Assembly (NCBI RefSeq): GCF_018457175.1
Contig: NZ_JAGFNU010000006.1
Location: 1-64,000, forward strand
Direction of reading: 5' to 3'
DNA: 64,000 nt
Origin: Pseudohalocynthiibacter aestuariivivens
GTDB taxonomy: Bacteria > Pseudomonadota > Alphaproteobacteria > Rhodobacterales > Rhodobacteraceae
The position numbers and the translations under genes are program-made. This document shows positions 1 to 58,559 of this stretch, piece after piece. The stretch's first letter is position 1. Every line of letters begins with the position of its first letter. The notes under the pieces were generated by a model. It was not told where the DNA came from. It did no database searches and saw only the letters and a list, made by a program, of their open reading frames with translations.

Positions 1-123
1 ATCAATGTTTGGCTCAGGCAATACAACCGGATAAGACCACATCACGCATTGAACATGCGCCCGCCAGTGCTTGAAACCTTATTAGAGAAAACGAAAATTA
101 CTGGTACTGAAATTGGGGGCTAG
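1..123 (+). CDS. IS3-family transposase (OrfB), C-terminal end only
   Basis: The window opens inside a reading frame that runs 40 codons to a TAG stop at 121-123. It encodes INVWLRQYNRIRPHHALNM followed by a Pro-Pro pair and ends in TGTEIGG. This is the typical last segment of the DDE integrase core of IS3-type transposases, which join the element ends to target DNA. The upstream part lies outside the window, so it cannot be told whether the gene is intact. No terminal inverted repeat could be recognised after the stop. Family identity is fairly secure; the exact IS group is not. Confidence 0.75.
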   Translation: MNVWLRQYNRIRPHHALNMRPPVLETLLEKTKITGTEIGG

Positions 124-51604: not shown

Positions 51605-52870
51605 TTAGCTACGTCCCTTCCATGGCACCAGATAGTTTTCAGCCTTACGCATCAGGATATCGATGCCGTAACCGATGACGCCAATCAGGATGATCCCCAT
51701 GATCACGATGTCGGTCAGCTGGAACTTTGAGGCCGCAATGATCATCATCCCGGCGCCCTTTTGCGCCGCAACAAGTTCTGCTGCCACAACTGTTCCCCAA
51801 CAAACACCCATTGCAACCCGCGCACCGGTAAAGATTTCCGGCAAAGAGTTGGGCACAATCACGTGCCGCATGATCTGACCACGTGACGCCCCCAACGAAT
51901 AGGCTGCGTGAATCTTGGTAATATTCACACCAGACACACCCGCCCGCGCTGCGATCGTCATGATCCAGAGCGCCGCAAGAAACAGCAACACGATCTTCCC
52001 GGTTTCCCAAATTCCGAACCAGATGATCACCAGCGGGATCAGAGCAAGTGGTGGTACGGGGCGCATGAATTCAACGATTGGATCAAACCAGCCACGGAAC
52101 CAACTGCTGAGCCCCATCGCGTATCCCAGCGGGATACCGACAAGTGACCCAAGGACAAAGCCTGCAATCACCCTCATCAGCGAGGAACTCAGGTGTTCGA
52201 TTAGCGTAAAGTTCTGATAGCCTGACCCGGAGATTTCAACAAGACGCGACCAGACCGCTTCAGGCGACGGCAGCCAAATCGGTTCCATTTGCCAGCCTTT
52301 TCTCGGCTCAAAATTGATCGTGCCTTTTCCTGTCAGACTGACCCGTCCGGCGTCGACCATAACTTCCTTGCCCGGCTCAATCGCCTGTCCGTCAATCGCC
52401 GTAATGCGAAAGCCGTCCTCTCCGCTTCCCTCATCATTTCCCTTTGTCTGAACAAGGCCGCTGCGCCATGCACCCACCGAAGCAACATCATTTTTAGCAA
52501 ACCCGTCGCCCGGTTCTACTTCGGGTTCTTCATCTGCGCTGCCGGTTTTGCGAACAACAACGGTGACCGTTGCGTCATCCGTCGCGCCCGCAGCATTCGT
52601 TGCGGTGTAGGTGAACGTCGCATCCCCAACAAAAGGACCCGGCGCATGAATCGGTGTCAACTTAGAGCCGGTAAAGGCACCCCAAATCAGAAATATGGAC
52701 AGAACTGAGATGATAGAGGCAGCCCTGTTGGGCTTTACCGCACTTTCGTCGCCGAATGTCACCGTCTTCAGACTGGTGAAATCATGCTTGGCGGTCATCA
52801 TTTTTGTTGCGGTACTCACAAGAAAAAAGGCACCTACAAACAAAATGATATAGATAATCAGAATGGTCAT
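51605..52870 (-). CDS. tauC: Taurine-type ABC transporter permease with adhesin-like insertion
   Basis: A 421-residue permease, far longer than usual TauC (about 275). Residues 200-420 are the normal permease domain (SSSLMRVIAGFVLGSLVGIP and the EAA-type loop SLGASRGQIMRHVIVPNSLP). The first 70 residues hold two membrane segments (2-21 and 51-67). Between them and the permease part lies a beta-rich piece (about 78-190) resembling tandem-95/bacterial Ig repeats: GDATFTYTATNAAGATDDA and FRITAIDGQAIEPGKEV. It overlaps tauB (ATGA) and pairs with TauA and TauB. Confidence 0.88.
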   Translation of the reverse strand: MTILIIYIILFVGAFFLVSTATKMMTAKHDFTSLKTVTFGDESAVKPNRAASIISVLSIFLIWGAFTGSKLTPIHAPGPFVGDATFTYTATNAAGATDDATVTVVVRKTGSADEEPEVEPGDGFAKNDVASVGAWRSGLVQTKGNDEGSGEDGFRITAIDGQAIEPGKEVMVDAGRVSLTGKGTINFEPRKGWQMEPIWLPSPEAVWSRLVEISGSGYQNFTLIEHLSSSLMRVIAGFVLGSLVGIPLGYAMGLSSWFRGWFDPIVEFMRPVPPLALIPLVIIWFGIWETGKIVLLFLAALWIMTIAARAGVSGVNITKIHAAYSLGASRGQIMRHVIVPNSLPEIFTGARVAMGVCWGTVVAAELVAAQKGAGMMIIAASKFQLTDIVIMGIILIGVIGYGIDILMRKAENYLVPWKGRS

Positions 52871-53673
52871 GCTGCGCCCTCCGTCCGGCCCATGATCTCT
52901 TCTTCCATTTCCCAGATCATCGACAGAATTTCTTCTCGCGTTTCGGAATAGCCTTTGGCTTTTTTCACCTCACGCAAATCTGCGTTCACACCCATTTCAG
53001 CATATGGCAACTGGTATTCCTTATGGATGCGCCCTGGCCGTGGTGCCAGCACCAACAACCGCTCACCCAGCAAAATAGCCTCTTCCACCGAATGGGTGAT
53101 CAGAATCACGGTCTTGCCGGTCTCTTTCCAAAGTTTCAGAACAAGGCCTTGCATTTTTTCACGGGTCAGCGCGTCAAGTGCACCTAACGGTTCATCCATC
53201 AGGATAACATCAGGGTCATTTGCCAGACATCGCGCCAGCGCAACACGCTGTTGCATACCACCTGACAATTCGTAAACCGCCTTGTCTTTAAAATCGCCCA
53301 ATCCGACGACCTCCAGCAAATGTTCAACGGTCTCGTTGCGCTCTGATCTGGGCAGCCCTTTCATCCGGGGTCCAAAATCAACGTTTTCACGCACGCTCAT
53401 CCATTCAAACAGCGCACCTTGCTGAAAGACCATTCCACGCTCTGCATCAGGGCCGGTCACTGTATGGCCATTCAGAACAACTTGTCCTTCAGTGGGCGCC
53501 AGAAAACCCGCGATGATATTCAAAAGCGTTGTCTTGCCGCAGCCCGATGGCCCAAGCACAGACATCAGCTCGCCTTCTTTGATATTCAGTGATACGTCCT
53601 TCAACGCCTGAATCGATGTTCCGTTCGGCAAGTCAAATCGCATTGAGATATTTTCGATTAATAGCCCTGTCAC
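52867..53673 (-). CDS. tauB: Taurine-type ABC transporter ATPase
   Basis: A 268-residue ABC ATPase that drives sulfonate import. Walker A is VLGPSGCGKTTLLNII, the ABC signature YELSGGMQQRVALARCL and Walker B VILMDEPLGALDAL. The GTG at 53673 follows AAGGGGA and gives the typical start VTGLLIENISMRF; a longer frame is not used. The C-terminus carries a short extension (SMIWEMEEEIMGRTEGAA). It belongs to the tauABC unit, coupled to tauC by a 4-base overlap. Confidence 0.93.
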   Translation of the reverse strand: MTGLLIENISMRFDLPNGTSIQALKDVSLNIKEGELMSVLGPSGCGKTTLLNIIAGFLAPTEGQVVLNGHTVTGPDAERGMVFQQGALFEWMSVRENVDFGPRMKGLPRSERNETVEHLLEVVGLGDFKDKAVYELSGGMQQRVALARCLANDPDVILMDEPLGALDALTREKMQGLVLKLWKETGKTVILITHSVEEAILLGERLLVLAPRPGRIHKEYQLPYAEMGVNADLREVKKAKGYSETREEILSMIWEMEEEIMGRTEGAA

Positions 53674-53740
53674 GCTAACGTCCCCTTTGCTGTCCCTAAT
53701 AGAAAAACGGCGCGCCGGATGGCGCGCCATTTAATAAGGT

Positions 53741-54742
53741 TTACATCGCAGATGCGGCCTGTAGCGCTGCCGTATTCACCGTTGCGTCATAAGAGTCGAG
53801 GGCTGAATCGATTGAACCTGCACCTACAAAGACGTCTGCGACGCCTTTCATGAAGATCTGGCTACCGCCACCGAGCCATTTATCGCTCAGCTGGTCTTCG
53901 ACGCTTGGGAAAGTGAAAGTAGCGATCGTCGCGCGGGTATCTTCCAGTTCCATACCAGCGTCCTTAGCGATAACCGGCAACATTTCTTCAACGCCTTCGC
54001 CAGAATTCCAGCGCTCGTTCATCTCTGCGGTGACAGCGAGGAACTTCGCAAGCAGTTCACCTTCTTCCGCAACAAAGTTTGCTGGTGCGGTTGTCACGTC
54101 AAACACCAGAATGCCGAGTTCTTCCTTTTCGGCTCCTGTCAGCAGCACGTTGCCGTTTTCTTTCATTCGACGCAGTGCGCCACCCCAACCGCAGGCCATA
54201 TCGATAGAACCTTGCGACAATGCAGCGGCACTTTCAGCAGGCGCCATGTCGACAACTTCCAACGACGCCACATCAACGCCAAAGTGGTTCATCTGAGACA
54301 AGAAGCCATAGTGCGCAGCAGTACCAAGAGGTACAGCAACTTTCTTGCCGGCAAGCTCGGACGCACTGGATGCGTCGATCTCAAGGCTCGATGCCACAAC
54401 GCAATTGTCGTTGTCAGAATAGGACACGGCCACGTCAACGATCTGGATGTCCTGACCAGCAGATACCGCAACTACGAAGGGCGGAACGCCCTGGCTGACA
54501 GAGATATCCACGTCGCCCGACGCCATCGCCGCGCTCATTGCAGTTCCGGTGTCAAACGCTACCCAGTTTACCTTGACGCCCATTGCTTCATCATAAAGGC
54601 CATTCACTTTCGCAAACTGAAAAGGCATCGGCCATTCCAGGAAGTAGGCGACAGTAATTTCGTCGGCAGCATATGCTGCCTGAGCACCCGTCAACATAGC
54701 TACACCAGCAACTGCACTCATAAATTTGGTTTTAAGTTTCAT
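53741..54742 (-). CDS. tauA: Taurine-type ABC transporter substrate-binding protein
   Basis: A 333-residue periplasmic binding protein with a clear signal peptide (residues 1-26, cut after AYA). The fold is the NMT1/TauA type: DEITVAYFLEWPMPFQFAK, VAFDTGTAMSAAMASGDVDI, AGKKVAVPLGTAAHYGFLSQ. Sulfonate contacts would come from the loops near these segments. The promoter region lies in the 385-base gap shared with tauR. It is the first gene of tauABC. Taurine is the likely ligand, though a related sulfonate is possible. Confidence 0.92.
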   Translation of the reverse strand: MKLKTKFMSAVAGVAMLTGAQAAYAADEITVAYFLEWPMPFQFAKVNGLYDEAMGVKVNWVAFDTGTAMSAAMASGDVDISVSQGVPPFVVAVSAGQDIQIVDVAVSYSDNDNCVVASSLEIDASSASELAGKKVAVPLGTAAHYGFLSQMNHFGVDVASLEVVDMAPAESAAALSQGSIDMACGWGGALRRMKENGNVLLTGAEKEELGILVFDVTTAPANFVAEEGELLAKFLAVTAEMNERWNSGEGVEEMLPVIAKDAGMELEDTRATIATFTFPSVEDQLSDKWLGGGSQIFMKGVADVFVGAGSIDSALDSYDATVNTAALQAASAM

Positions 54743-55127
54743 TCTTTTCTCCCGGTTATTTTACCGCTTCAGCGGTTTGATTTTATCGATTTGGAACAGC
54801 AAAACTTTTTTGTTTTGTCTTGATTTTGACCAAAGCATTACACAGCGAACCACAGAACCCGATTCCAAAATAGCCCCGAATTTCGATTGCGATTCTCTTG
54901 CTCCTTCCATTCTGAGACGTTTCTGCCAAGCCTTTCACAGAAATTTTGCAGACAAAAATTCTGCTCTAAGTCTAAGCAATTTCAAAATTTTTCAAGTTTT
55001 TTTGTTCGCGACCTCCACTCAGGAAACCGCTCTTGCGTCTCCTGCTATTGAACATGAATAATGCCTCATCGTAAAGTCCAGTATCTCCAGTTTACATTGC
55101 GCGATAAGACCAGTTAAAGAACACAAC
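54743..55127. promoter_or_regulatory. Divergent control region of tauABC and tauR
   Basis: No gene is seen in this 385-base gap. It serves as promoter DNA for tauA (minus) and tauR (plus). Visible items are the small palindrome ACCGCT-TC-AGCGGT in the tauA leader (54763-54776), AT-rich stretches, a GGGAGAAAA ribosome binding site before tauA, and the CTGG boxes at 55078-55114. Confidence 0.6.
55078..55114 (-). promoter_or_regulatory. Putative TauR boxes (ACTGG repeats) upstream of tauR/tauA
   Basis: On the minus strand ACTGG occurs three times: AACTGGTCTT, AAACTGGAGAT and ATACTGGACTTTA. Their CTGG cores lie at 55110-55113, 55087-55090 and 55078-55081, so the spacings are 23 and 9 bases. As I recall, TauR of Rhodobacter capsulatus binds direct repeats with a CTGGAC core. 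The match to that motif is inference. Confidence 0.5.
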
Positions 55128-56582
55128 ATGGCAATATCTGAAGAAACATTTTTCCTCGAGAACCGATTCGAGGGCACTCTCCAAAGCCAGATTCAACAAA
55201 TGGTGGCAGAGGGAATTCTGTCTGGACGCTTTCGACCCGGTGAAAAAATGCCCTCTTCGCGGAAGCTGGCCAAACATCTCGGTGTGTCGCGGCTGACCGT
55301 GACGCTTGCATATAACGAGCTCATATCTGACGACTACCTGACGTCGCATGGCCGCTCTGGTTACTTCATATCCCAAAGTGCGCCTCCACCACCGGAGTTT
55401 TCAGCTGGTCATTCCCGAGACAGCGTTGACTGGTCGCGCGCAATTGGACGGCGGTTTTCCGGCGCTCGATTGGTTGAGAAACCGGTTGACTGGGAGGCGT
55501 TCCCTTATCCCTTTGTCTATGGGCAAGCGGACCCAACGCTGTTTGATCAGCAAAACTGGCGCCTTTGTGCGCTTCAGGCACTCGGCCGCAAGGACTTTTC
55601 AAGCCTGACGGCAGACTATGCCGAAAGGGATGACCCGAAGCTGGTTGAGTTTATCGCGCGTCACACGCTCCCGCGGCGCGGAATATTAGCACGCCCAGAA
55701 GAAATCCTGATCACTATAGGGGCGCAAAACGCCCTCTGGCTTGCTGCACAGATACTCCTGACGCAACGACGTACCGCAGCTTATGAAAACCCCTGCTATC
55801 CGGGTTTGCGAGAAATTTTAACTCAGGCGCGGTGTCATCTGGCCCCTATCCCAGTTGACGATGATGGTCTTCCACCCGACCTGCTGCCAGACGAAACGGA
55901 CGTCGTCTTTACGACTCCAAGCCATCAGTGCCCAACCTCGACAACAATGTCGCTTAAACGCAGGCAGACATTGCTGGAACGCGCACGTGAACGGGATTTT
56001 CTGGTCGTTGAAGACGACTATGAGTTTGAAATGTCGTTCCTGACCAAAGCATCACCAGCGCTTAAGTCTCTGGATGAAGATGGTCGCGTTATCTATGTAG
56101 GCTCTTTTTCCAAATCCCTTTTTCCGGGACTGAGGTTGGGGTATCTGGTCGGTTCTGCACCATTTATTCAGGAAGCCCGCGCGCTCCGATCCTCGGTCCT
56201 GCGCCATATACCCGGTCACACGCAGCGTACCACCGCCTATTTTCTGTCGCATGGACACTATGATGCTCTCGTGCGCCGTATTCGAAATGCGCTTCATGAA
56301 CGGCGTGAATTGATGGACCAGGAAATCCGCAAGCATGGCCTTTCCATCGCTGGGCGTGCCAGCTTTGGCGGGTCTTCGTTCTGGATGTCGACCGGGCCTG
56401 GCATTGACGTCGACGATCTGACAACCCGCCTCAAGGCACGGGGCGTCTTAATTGAACCCGGAACACCGTTTTTTGAAACGGCCGATGAAGGACGAGAATA
56501 CTTTCGTCTTGCCTATTCTTCGATACCGCTTGCTAAGATTCCCAAGGGCATCGCCATTCTTGCTGAAGAAATGGGCCGCTAA
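55128..56582 (+). CDS. tauR: MocR-type regulator TauR (GntR helix-turn-helix fused to aminotransferase fold)
   Basis: A 484-residue regulator. Residues 10-85 form a GntR winged helix (RPGEKMPSSRKLAKHLGVSR followed by LTVTLAYNELI). The rest resembles class I aminotransferases, with the PLP lysine in VGSFSKSLFPGLRLGYL and the PLP-phosphate region near GAQNALWLAAQ. In TauR taurine reacts with the bound PLP to activate the taurine genes. It diverges from tauABC and lies just before xsc, as in other Rhodobacterales. No tpa gene follows, though it does in many relatives. Confidence 0.93.
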   Translation: MAISEETFFLENRFEGTLQSQIQQMVAEGILSGRFRPGEKMPSSRKLAKHLGVSRLTVTLAYNELISDDYLTSHGRSGYFISQSAPPPPEFSAGHSRDSVDWSRAIGRRFSGARLVEKPVDWEAFPYPFVYGQADPTLFDQQNWRLCALQALGRKDFSSLTADYAERDDPKLVEFIARHTLPRRGILARPEEILITIGAQNALWLAAQILLTQRRTAAYENPCYPGLREILTQARCHLAPIPVDDDGLPPDLLPDETDVVFTTPSHQCPTSTTMSLKRRQTLLERARERDFLVVEDDYEFEMSFLTKASPALKSLDEDGRVIYVGSFSKSLFPGLRLGYLVGSAPFIQEARALRSSVLRHIPGHTQRTTAYFLSHGHYDALVRRIRNALHERRELMDQEIRKHGLSIAGRASFGGSSFWMSTGPGIDVDDLTTRLKARGVLIEPGTPFFETADEGREYFRLAYSSIPLAKIPKGIAILAEEMGR

Positions 56583-56639
56583 GGGAGCCCGCAAAGACTG
56601 TACAAGACCGAGTGCTGCAAATTCAACGTTGACAAAAAC

Positions 56640-56674
56640 TTCCGTTAATGAGACTTAAGGTCTCATTAACGGAA
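56640..56674 (+). promoter_or_regulatory. Perfect palindrome with 15-bp arms upstream of xsc
   Basis: TTCCGTTAATGAGAC, then TTAAG, then GTCTCATTAACGGAA. The arms match at every base. It lies after the tauR stop and 115 bases before the xsc start, right next to a TTGACA hexamer (56629-56634). It may be the tauR terminator, but no T run follows, or an operator for xsc. Confidence 0.6.
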
Positions 56675-56677
56675 ATG

Positions 56678-56710
56678 CTGGCTATAGAGTGCACCCAAAA
56701 CTGGACCTAC
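56678..56710 (+). promoter_or_regulatory. Putative TauR boxes upstream of xsc
   Basis: GCTGGCTATA and ACTGGACCTA carry CTGG cores at 56678-56681 and 56701-56704, 23 bases apart. The spacing equals that of two boxes before tauR (55087 and 55110), and CTGGACCTA resembles the TauR motif recalled from Rhodobacter. They lie 80-110 bases before xsc. Binding is inferred. Confidence 0.45.
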
Positions 56711-56789
56711 ATGAAGGCAAAGCTAAGCAGTAGCCTACGCGCTGAAATCATATAAATTGGCCCAGCCCGCCACGTCGAGGAGACACCGC

Positions 56790-58559
56790 ATGAAAATGAC
56801 AACTGAAGAAGCCTTTGTAAAAACCCTCCAGATGCATGGGATCGAACATGCCTTCGGTATCATCGGCTCGGCAATGATGCCGATTTCCGATATCTTTGGC
56901 AAAGCCGGTATCACCTTCTGGGATTGTGCACATGAAGGCTCCGGCGGCATGATGGCGGACGGATACACCCGTGCCACCGGCAAGATGTCAATGATGATCG
57001 CTCAGAACGGACCGGGCATCACCAACTTTGTGACCGCCGTAAAAACCGCTTACTGGAACCACACTCCCGTACTGCTCGTGACACCACAAGCCGCGAACAA
57101 GACTATGGGTCAAGGTGGCTTTCAGGAAGTCGAGCAAATGGCCGCGTTCGAAGACATGGTATGCTATCAGGAAGAAGTCCGCGACCCTACCCGTATGGCC
57201 GAGGTTCTGAACCGCGTTATTCTGAACGCCAAACGCTACAGCGCCCCGGCACAGATCAACGTGCCACGCGACTACTTCACGCAGGTCGTTGACATCGAAC
57301 TGCCTCAGATCGTCGAATTCGAAACCCCGGCCGGCGGTGAAGCCGCACTGGATCAGGCCGCTGAATTGCTGTCAAATGCCAAGTTCCCTGTAATCCTGAA
57401 CGGCGCCGGCGTTATTCTTGCCGACGCAATTCCGGCGTCCGCCGCTCTGGCTGAAAGACTTGATGCACCCGTCTGCTGTGGTTACCAGCACAATGATGCC
57501 TTCCCGGGCTCTCACCCGTTGCATGCGGGTCCTCTTGGCTACAATGGCTCGAAAGCAGGTATGCAGCTGATCAATCAGGCTGATGTTGTTTTGTGCCTTG
57601 GCACGCGCCTCAACCCATTCTCAACACTGCCGGGCTATGGAATCGACTACTGGCCCACAAACGCTAAAATCATTCAGGTTGACGTCAAGCCAGAGCGTAT
57701 CGGCCTGACCAAGCCAGTTGCCGTTGGCATCGTGGGCGACGCCAAAAAGGTTGCGGCAACACTGCTGGAAAAACTGTCAGATACTGCAGGCGATGCAGGG
57801 CGTGACGCGCGTAAAGCGAAAATCGCCACAACTAAATCGGCTTGGGCGCAGGAACTCAGCTCGATGGATCACGAGCAGGACGATCCCGGCACCACATGGA
57901 ACGAGCGCGCACGTGCTGCCAAGCCCGACTGGCTCAGCCCACGTCGTGCATGGCGAGCGATTCAGGCCGCGCTACCAAAAGACGCGATCATCTCTTCCGA
58001 TATCGGCAACAACTGCGCTATCGGTAACGCCTACCCGTCGTTTGAAGAAGGCCGTAAATACCTCGCACCAGGTCTATTTGGCCCATGCGGCTATGGCCTG
58101 CCGGCGGTTGTTGGTGCGAAAATCGGCTGCCCCGATGTTCCCGTTGTCGGCTTCTCCGGTGACGGTGCTTTCGGCATCGCAGTAACCGAGCTGACCGCGA
58201 TCGGCCGCAAAGAATGGCCTGCCGTGACCCAGATCGTGTTCCGCAACTACCAGTGGGGAGCCGAAAAACGTAATTCGACACTGTGGTTTGATGACAACTT
58301 CGTCGGCACCGAACTGGACACTCAGGTGTCTTATGCCGGCATCGCCAAGGCCTGCGGCCTGAAAGGTGTTGTCGCGCGTACGATGGACGAACTGACCGAT
58401 GCTCTGGACCAAGCGATCAAGGATCAGAAAAACGGTATCACCACACTGATCGAAGCCATGATAAATCAGGAACTGGGCGAACCGTTCCGTCGCGACGCAA
58501 TGAAAAACCCGGTTGAAGTTGCCGGTATCAGCGCAGACGATATGCGTCCGCAGTCTTAA
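56790..58559 (+). CDS. xsc: Sulfoacetaldehyde acetyltransferase
   Basis: A 589-residue thiamine diphosphate enzyme that splits sulfoacetaldehyde with phosphate into acetyl phosphate and sulfite. The activating glutamate is probably in DCAHEGSGGMMADGY near residue 50. The ThDP-magnesium motif begins VVGFSGDGAFG and ends FRNYQWGAEKRN. LGTRLNPFSTLPGYGIDYWP is typical of Xsc, not of related acetolactate synthases. GAGGAG precedes the ATG at 56790. It is followed by pta, whose product uses the acetyl phosphate. Confidence 0.97.
   Translation: MKMTTEEAFVKTLQMHGIEHAFGIIGSAMMPISDIFGKAGITFWDCAHEGSGGMMADGYTRATGKMSMMIAQNGPGITNFVTAVKTAYWNHTPVLLVTPQAANKTMGQGGFQEVEQMAAFEDMVCYQEEVRDPTRMAEVLNRVILNAKRYSAPAQINVPRDYFTQVVDIELPQIVEFETPAGGEAALDQAAELLSNAKFPVILNGAGVILADAIPASAALAERLDAPVCCGYQHNDAFPGSHPLHAGPLGYNGSKAGMQLINQADVVLCLGTRLNPFSTLPGYGIDYWPTNAKIIQVDVKPERIGLTKPVAVGIVGDAKKVAATLLEKLSDTAGDAGRDARKAKIATTKSAWAQELSSMDHEQDDPGTTWNERARAAKPDWLSPRRAWRAIQAALPKDAIISSDIGNNCAIGNAYPSFEEGRKYLAPGLFGPCGYGLPAVVGAKIGCPDVPVVGFSGDGAFGIAVTELTAIGRKEWPAVTQIVFRNYQWGAEKRNSTLWFDDNFVGTELDTQVSYAGIAKACGLKGVVARTMDELTDALDQAIKDQKNGITTLIEAMINQELGEPFRRDAMKNPVEVAGISADDMRPQS

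Follow-up and report, generated by a model that had tools for sequence, protein, structure and literature searches.

The window analysed here is a 64,000-nucleotide stretch of the Pseudohalocynthiibacter aestuariivivens genome, and it holds a taurine locus in which the minus strand carries tauCBA and the plus strand carries tauR, xsc, pta and genes resembling tauE and soe; the last two names rest on a reading of the translations. tauR (55128-56582, plus strand) encodes a MocR-type regulator with a GntR domain and an aminotransferase-like domain. xsc (56790-58559, plus strand) encodes sulfoacetaldehyde acetyltransferase, which scores 932.7 bits with TIGR03457 against a cut-off of 676.4. On the minus strand, tauA (53741-54742) encodes a taurine-type ABC transporter binding protein, and tauB (52867-53730) and tauC (51605-52870) are its partners. 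The best-scoring models are taurine transporter models, yet the scores lie under the equivalog cut-offs. Some further features of the locus deserve mention. The tauC-like permease (51605-52870) is 421 residues long and resembles TauC only from about residue 194, while its N-terminal half contains a stretch that, judged by eye, resembles a secreted repeat. The tauA leader carries a stem (ACCGC/GCGGT, loop TTCA, 54763-54776) about 20 nt 5' of the start codon, which is scored as terminator-like on the plus strand. Finally, we note that a 32-mer at window positions 9-40 (C41:9) recurs identically at C1:10, C3:113307, C16:19487, C21:10104, C23:10, C25:7225 and C43:31674 in the same genome, three of the copies lying right at a contig start; it is probably a repeat at which the assembly broke.

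Both tauR and xsc are preceded by paired CTGG boxes. Upstream of tauR, minus-strand CTGG cores lie at 55110-55113 and 55087-55090, 23 nt apart, and a third is present at 55078-55081; upstream of xsc, plus-strand cores begin at 56678 and 56701, again 23 nt apart, the second lying within ACTGGACCTA (56700-56709). These cores were pointed out in an earlier note on this DNA, and its coordinates hold. We scored the box as CTGGNCYTA, which has eight defined positions, so that a pair can reach at most 16. Before tauR, box 1 (CTGGTCTTA, 55105-55113, minus strand) agrees at 8/8 positions and lies 14 nt from the tauR ATG, and box 2 (CTGGAGATA, 55082-55090, minus strand) agrees at 6/8 and lies 23 nt from box 1. 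Before xsc, box 1 (CTGGCTATA, 56678-56686, plus strand) agrees at 6/8 and box 2 (CTGGACCTA, 56701-56709, plus strand), 23 nt further, at 8/8. The third CTGG box near tauR (CTGGACTTT, 55073-55081, minus strand; 7/8) lies 9 nt beyond box 2 and is a candidate only.

Are these pairs chance matches? The bare arrangement CTGG-N19-CTGG is not rare. It arises in 27/5000 and 19/5000 shuffles of the two intergenic stretches, and it occurs six times in the 64-kb window where 1.74 occurrences were expected, a count that 1 of 100 shuffles reaches; it is thus only mildly unusual and weak evidence alone. The full box is more discriminating. The best full-box pair at 22 or 23 nt scores 14/16 in both the tauA-tauR and the tauR-xsc stretch, and this score is reached in 1/5000 and 2/5000 dinucleotide shuffles, respectively. 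These shuffles, together with the orientation and conservation described below, all oppose a chance origin, which we consider scarcely credible. Across the 3.9-Mb genome, CTGGNCYTA-N14-CTGGNCYTA is found at four places with two mismatches and at none with fewer, and the tauR and xsc pairs are two of the four. When up to three mismatches are allowed, the pair is rarer than its reversed control (62 versus 121 places); consequently, the box pair does not predict the regulon genome-wide, and we abandoned its use for that purpose.

To what extent are the paired boxes conserved? The set of tauR relatives comprised 80 loci from named genomes and further loci, filtered by tblastn bit score and by a match start near the query start. 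After filtering there were 99 tauR upstream regions; the window counts as one of these and as one of the 75 xsc loci, and L001 was left out as a duplicate of the window. Upstream regions were scanned in both orientations for pairs scoring at least 14/16 at spacings of 15-45 nt; the controls were Markov resamplings scanned in one orientation, and they gave 0 to 0.5 pairs per set. Pairs at 22 or 23 nt precede xsc in 69/75 regions, tpa in 47/56 and tauR in 73/99, so the box pairs are conserved in relatives. The orientation of the pairs differs between promoters. Upstream of xsc, 69/75 regions have a forward pair (61 at 23 nt, 8 at 22 nt) and none a reverse pair, and upstream of tpa, 50/56 have a forward pair (38 at 23 nt, 9 at 22 nt) and one a reverse pair. 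Upstream of tauR, 79/99 have a reverse pair (62 at 22 nt, 12 at 23 nt) and two a forward pair. The boxes therefore point toward the gene at xsc and tpa and away from it at tauR. In the same scan at the same score, the regions upstream of tauB, pta, soeA and tauE yield only zero or one pair in either direction. Upstream of tauA, where the earlier note also suggested a motif search, 15/32 regions contain a pair, but all are reverse and none is forward; the pairs point away from tauA and appear to be the sites of tpa in shared intergenic regions. Exact CTGG pairs show the same preferences. On the minus strand upstream of tauR they are 22 nt apart in 49/99 loci and 23 nt apart in 8/99, while on the other strand no exact-CTGG spacing exceeds four loci. 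On the plus strand between tauR and xsc, they are 23 nt apart in 27/72 and 22 nt apart in 4, three of the 75 stretches having been left out as longer than 600 bp. The positions whose conservation reaches 0.35 bits are those of the boxes, the box edges and the promoter, and not most of the spacer.

The earlier note took the equal spacing at the two promoters as its point of departure. This part of its reasoning does not generalize: among the 68 loci in which both dyads (pairs of direct repeats) are recognized at a threshold of 13, the usual combination is 22 nt at tauR with 23 nt at xsc (51/68), followed by 22 with 22 (6), 23 with 23, as in the window (5), and 23 with 22 (2), although these counts are not independent because, on the TauR tree, spacing changes 7 times at tauR and 3 times at xsc. 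The two closest relatives (L033 and L034) have a 20-nt dyad at tauR, and two Paracoccus loci (L181 and L184) have no dyad near tauR. Conservation strongly supports the pattern itself, a pair of direct repeats spaced by about two helical turns, which is of a kind already known, to judge from the accessible text of PMC5320631. A strict code, with 22 nt for autoregulation and 23 nt for activation, was considered and rejected: the window genome's own tpa has 22 nt, as do 9/56 relatives at tpa and 8/75 at xsc, and loci with a divergent tauA also have 22 nt. The third box near tauR likewise drops out of the pattern. At its offset (55073-55081 in the window) only one box of at least 7/8 is found among 93 tauR dyads, and none among the 92 dyads other than that of the window; bare CTGG cores 9 nt apart occur within 350 nt upstream of tauR in 5/99 loci, the window included.

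The window thus combines, next to taurine genes and a gene for a MocR-type TauR, direct repeats that agree at 8 and 6 and at 6 and 8 of eight positions, a 23-nt spacing and conservation of both in relatives. On the strength of these observations, we propose that the paired CTGG boxes are very probably TauR binding sites of the known kind. TauR would bind as a head-to-tail dimer to a pair of CTGGNCYTA direct repeats 22-23 bp apart.

Where do the repeats lie relative to the promoters? A candidate xsc −10 element, TAGCCT (56731-56736, plus strand), begins 30 nt from box 2, and TA is found at +30 from xsc box 2 in 58/71 relatives, compared with a mean of 2.0 at other offsets. By general promoter geometry, this would place box 2 next to the −35 region, the position of a class II activator. 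We propose that TauR, in the presence of taurine, would activate xsc from beside the −35 region, because the repeats are directed toward this gene and the second is 30 bp upstream of the −10 element. TauR would activate tpa as well as xsc. However, a single geometry does not hold for all activated promoters, since TA at +30 is frequent at xsc and occurs in only 1/54 cases at tpa. The window genome's own tpa, on another contig, is preceded by CTGGACTTA-22-CTGGATGAT, with GATAAT 31 nt beyond box 2; its box 2 (CTGGATGAT) is degenerate. This tpa (C1:136415-137773, L173) is unlinked to the taurine locus, while many relatives have tpa near tauR, and the gene ahead of it is SMC-like by a reading of its translation.

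At tauR the arrangement is different, and the earlier note had overlooked both that the tauR dyad points against tauR and that it overlaps the tauR promoter. The dyad overlaps a candidate core promoter, TTTACA-N17-TTAAAG (55091-55119, plus strand), which is absent from the listing of a simple consensus promoter scan of the window; if this promoter is used, the tauR transcript would be almost leaderless. Box 1 lies 14 nt from the tauR ATG in 35/93 dyads, and all 35 have a spacing of 22 nt. Of the 51 loci whose box 1 is 12-15 nt from the ATG, 40 have TTG at the −35 position and 40 have TA at the −10 position, with a 17-nt spacer; this spacer contains box 1, and box 2 directly precedes the −35 element. 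A dyad laid over the −35 and −10 elements is the layout of an autorepressor. We propose that TauR would act as a repressor of tauR, because the repeats, which are directed away from this gene, interleave with its −35 and −10 elements.

Alternatively, the tauR-side dyad could be chiefly an activator site of the divergent tauABC genes, as expected in Sinorhizobium meliloti, rather than an autorepressor site. The dyad does point toward tauA, and a candidate tauA −10 element, TATTCA (55055-55060, minus strand), begins 30 nt from its box 2. In eleven loci in which tauA is divergent from tauR (ten of rhizobial type and one filed as Roseateles), TA is found at +30 from box 2 in 10/11. The set from which these are drawn has 15 loci, of which the four without a divergent tauA (L183 and L213-L215) also have no TA at +30; L181 and L184 stand outside it. 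An apparent third box 23 nt further along in S. meliloti and its relatives was discarded, as it coincides with the −10 element at +30. Taurine induction of S. meliloti tauA was studied together with tauR, according to the part of PMC4254191 available to us. Against this reading, tpa is co-directional with tauR in 58/60 loci that have tpa in reach, and the reverse dyad is kept in 17/18 loci with a co-directional tpa no more than 400 bp upstream of tauR; there the dyad belongs to tauR, as it serves no divergent gene. Moreover, the dyad overlaps the conserved tauR core promoter, and TA at +30 on the tauA side is found in only 7/92 tauR dyads of the main set of relatives. In the window, about 340 bp separate the dyad from the tauA start, so that a long leader would be needed, and the tauA product is only about 28% identical to S. 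meliloti TauA. We therefore regard an activator site of tauABC as possible but doubtful, and we favor autorepression of tauR. The two roles could be combined: as TATTCA is placed at +30 like the rhizobial tauA −10 element, the tauR-side dyad may also activate the divergent tauA in the window genome.

A second feature that the earlier note had missed is located beside the xsc dyad. A perfect palindrome of 35 bp with 15-bp arms and the core TGAGAC-N5-GTCTCA (56640-56674, alike on both strands) is found upstream of xsc, and its core ends exactly 13 nt before the dyad. With up to 3/14 mismatches, the core is present in 24/75 xsc upstream regions. It ends 12-14 nt before box 1 in 17 of the 24, the window included, and at exactly 13 nt in 15; in the other seven it is elsewhere, or there is no dyad to measure from. 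The 15-bp perfect stem could be read as a tauR transcription terminator or a mere hairpin, and a terminator-like call with a T-run is indeed made here on the minus strand. No such call is made in the direction of tauR, however, and in the listed relatives that share the core the perfect arms are just 7-10 bp. The fixed register to the TauR box and the recurrence of the same core before iseK, described below, also argue against a terminator or hairpin, which we judge quite improbable.

Because xsc is shared with isethionate breakdown and might therefore carry the site of a second regulator, we searched 12 genomes with the palindrome for further copies. With at most one mismatch, 32 distinct places were found, versus 6 for the reversed control. 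Twelve are the xsc sites (12/12 genomes, by coordinates); 11 of the genomes contribute a further site each from the interval separating a GMC dehydrogenase gene from a TRAP binding protein gene, and the other nine places are elsewhere. Of the 20 places outside xsc, 12 were opened: 11 are iseJ-iseK intervals and one is inside an open reading frame. The cluster includes an IclR-type gene in 11/11 loci. A single protein each of IseJ, IseK and IclR was examined with family models, and the other assignments rest on tblastn. In Ruegeria pomeroyi, iseR, iseM, iseL, iseK and iseJ are annotated in consecutive loci (PMC4334477, accessible part), and from their kind and order we infer that the cluster genes of the relatives are the R. 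pomeroyi ise genes. With up to 2/14 mismatches, the palindrome is upstream of iseK in 26/27 distinct loci, versus 0/720 in shuffles; because 11 of the 27 were reached through the palindrome itself, the 15 loci found by protein alone are the fairer set, and 14 of these have it. The 27 loci leave out four IseK genomes (G032, G035, G482 and G483). The relatives thus share the palindrome between these iseK loci and 16 xsc promoters that have it in register besides that of the window.

Does the palindrome accompany the isethionate route? IseK is found in 15/16 genomes with the palindrome in register compared with 15/57 others (Fisher p 1.3e-6), L080 being left out of the IseK search; however, the palindrome changes only 4 times on the TauR tree, and independent pairs cannot reach significance. 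We therefore do not count this co-occurrence as independent evidence, as it is inseparable from descent. In L090 the palindrome is present but no IseK was detected; conversely, IseK occurs in 15 genomes that lack the palindrome in register.

From its position in both kinds of promoter, the palindrome is most likely the operator of the IclR-type isethionate regulator, IseR. Since this assignment rests on neighborhood, the palindrome might instead belong to a different regulator that also controls the isethionate cluster; the constant presence of the IclR-type gene in the cluster and the annotation of R. pomeroyi iseR, beside iseKLM-iseJ, as the isethionate dissimilation regulator (PMC4334477, as far as its text was available) make this unlikely. 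If IseR is the regulator, the palindrome, in its fixed register 13 bp upstream of the xsc dyad, would be an IseR operator and xsc a two-input promoter. The two inputs would probably be taurine and isethionate, because relatives share the register and carry a copy of the palindrome before iseK near the IclR regulator.

The window genome has the same palindrome at xsc that the relatives have at their ise-type clusters, and it has an iseR-like gene. This iseR is intact (contig C34, 7692-8474 of the stretch L257) and encodes a protein of 260 residues that is 55% identical to the L250 protein. It is found in a remnant of an isethionate-type cluster (7692-9336 of L257) inside the contig, in which iseM is truncated and overlaps a C-terminal iseJ fragment. 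The best match to iseJ elsewhere in the genome, by a genome-wide search, has 53% identity. iseK has no tblastn match in L257, L258 and the window, and both iseL and iseK are absent, by reading, from the fetched L257 stretch. Judged from what is left in these stretches, the isethionate cluster of this genome is mostly deleted, and iseR and the palindrome remain. With up to two mismatches, the genome holds four palindrome places besides xsc, versus 18 for the reversed control, and none is on C34; the one of the four inspected (C40:257560) is inside an open reading frame. With fewer places than its control, this search was set aside as a means of finding targets.

How do these sites compare with known systems? 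GabR of Bacillus subtilis activates and represses from one divergent region; unlike GabR, tauR here mostly has a dyad of its own. GabR is otherwise alike: it too is a MocR regulator that uses direct repeats, and it combines activation of its targets with repression of its own gene (PMC5320631, available text). The closest precedent is the Rhodobacter capsulatus TauR operator (Wiethaus et al. 2008, as cited in the parts of PMC5320631 and PMC4494728 available to us), at which a MocR-type TauR upregulates taurine genes through direct repeats of CTGGACYTAA, the published TauR consensus (PMC5320631). What differs here is that tauR sites (reverse) and xsc sites (forward) are compared across about 100 loci, which brings out the 22/23-nt difference. 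In the same portion of PMC5320631, the reconstructed TauR regulons (Suvorova and Rodionov 2016) include tauABC, tpa, xsc, pta and tauE and, in some Rhodobacterales, also bisC, dmsC and hybA, and the repeats are one or several helical turns apart at a distance that may vary slightly; that portion states neither a difference in orientation or spacing between tauR and its targets nor an IseR site. Neither this difference nor the overlap with the tauR promoter was met in the literature searched. Likewise, an IseR operator or joint control of xsc by TauR and IseR was not found in the literature searched, outside of which the key 2008 and 2010 papers lie. The R. pomeroyi iseR-iseM-iseL-iseK-iseJ cluster has, by its description, the same gene kinds in the same order as the palindrome loci of the relatives, and no operator is described for it in the accessible part of PMC4334477; the window genome, in contrast, keeps only iseR and fragments there. 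Thus, while TauR direct repeats are already known, the recurrence of the palindrome at isethionate promoters of relatives is, as far as we found, unreported. Finally, isethionate is reported not to induce xsc and tpa of R. capsulatus (PMC11423573, in the part available), which fits, without proving, a restriction of the palindrome to lineages that have the ise route.

Taken together, we consider it highly probable that TauR would act through direct-repeat operators at xsc, as an activator, and at tauR, as an autorepressor, and that an IseR palindrome would make xsc a two-input promoter. A broader picture is, in our estimation, somewhat better than even. We propose that the xsc promoter of a group of marine Rhodobacteraceae would be a composite switch in which an IseR palindrome and a TauR dyad are held in a fixed register (13 + 23 + 30 bp to the −10 element), such that either taurine or isethionate would induce the shared Xsc, while TauR would limit itself through an opposite dyad over its own promoter. 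In the window genome, iseR would be left with xsc as its only recognized target, either as a regulatory relic or as a reused regulator.

Two widespread sulfonates, taurine and isethionate, can both be broken down by way of Xsc. The present analysis places the known TauR motif at base resolution, reveals that its orientation and spacing differ between the promoters TauR would activate and the regulator's own, and proposes a candidate operator for IseR.
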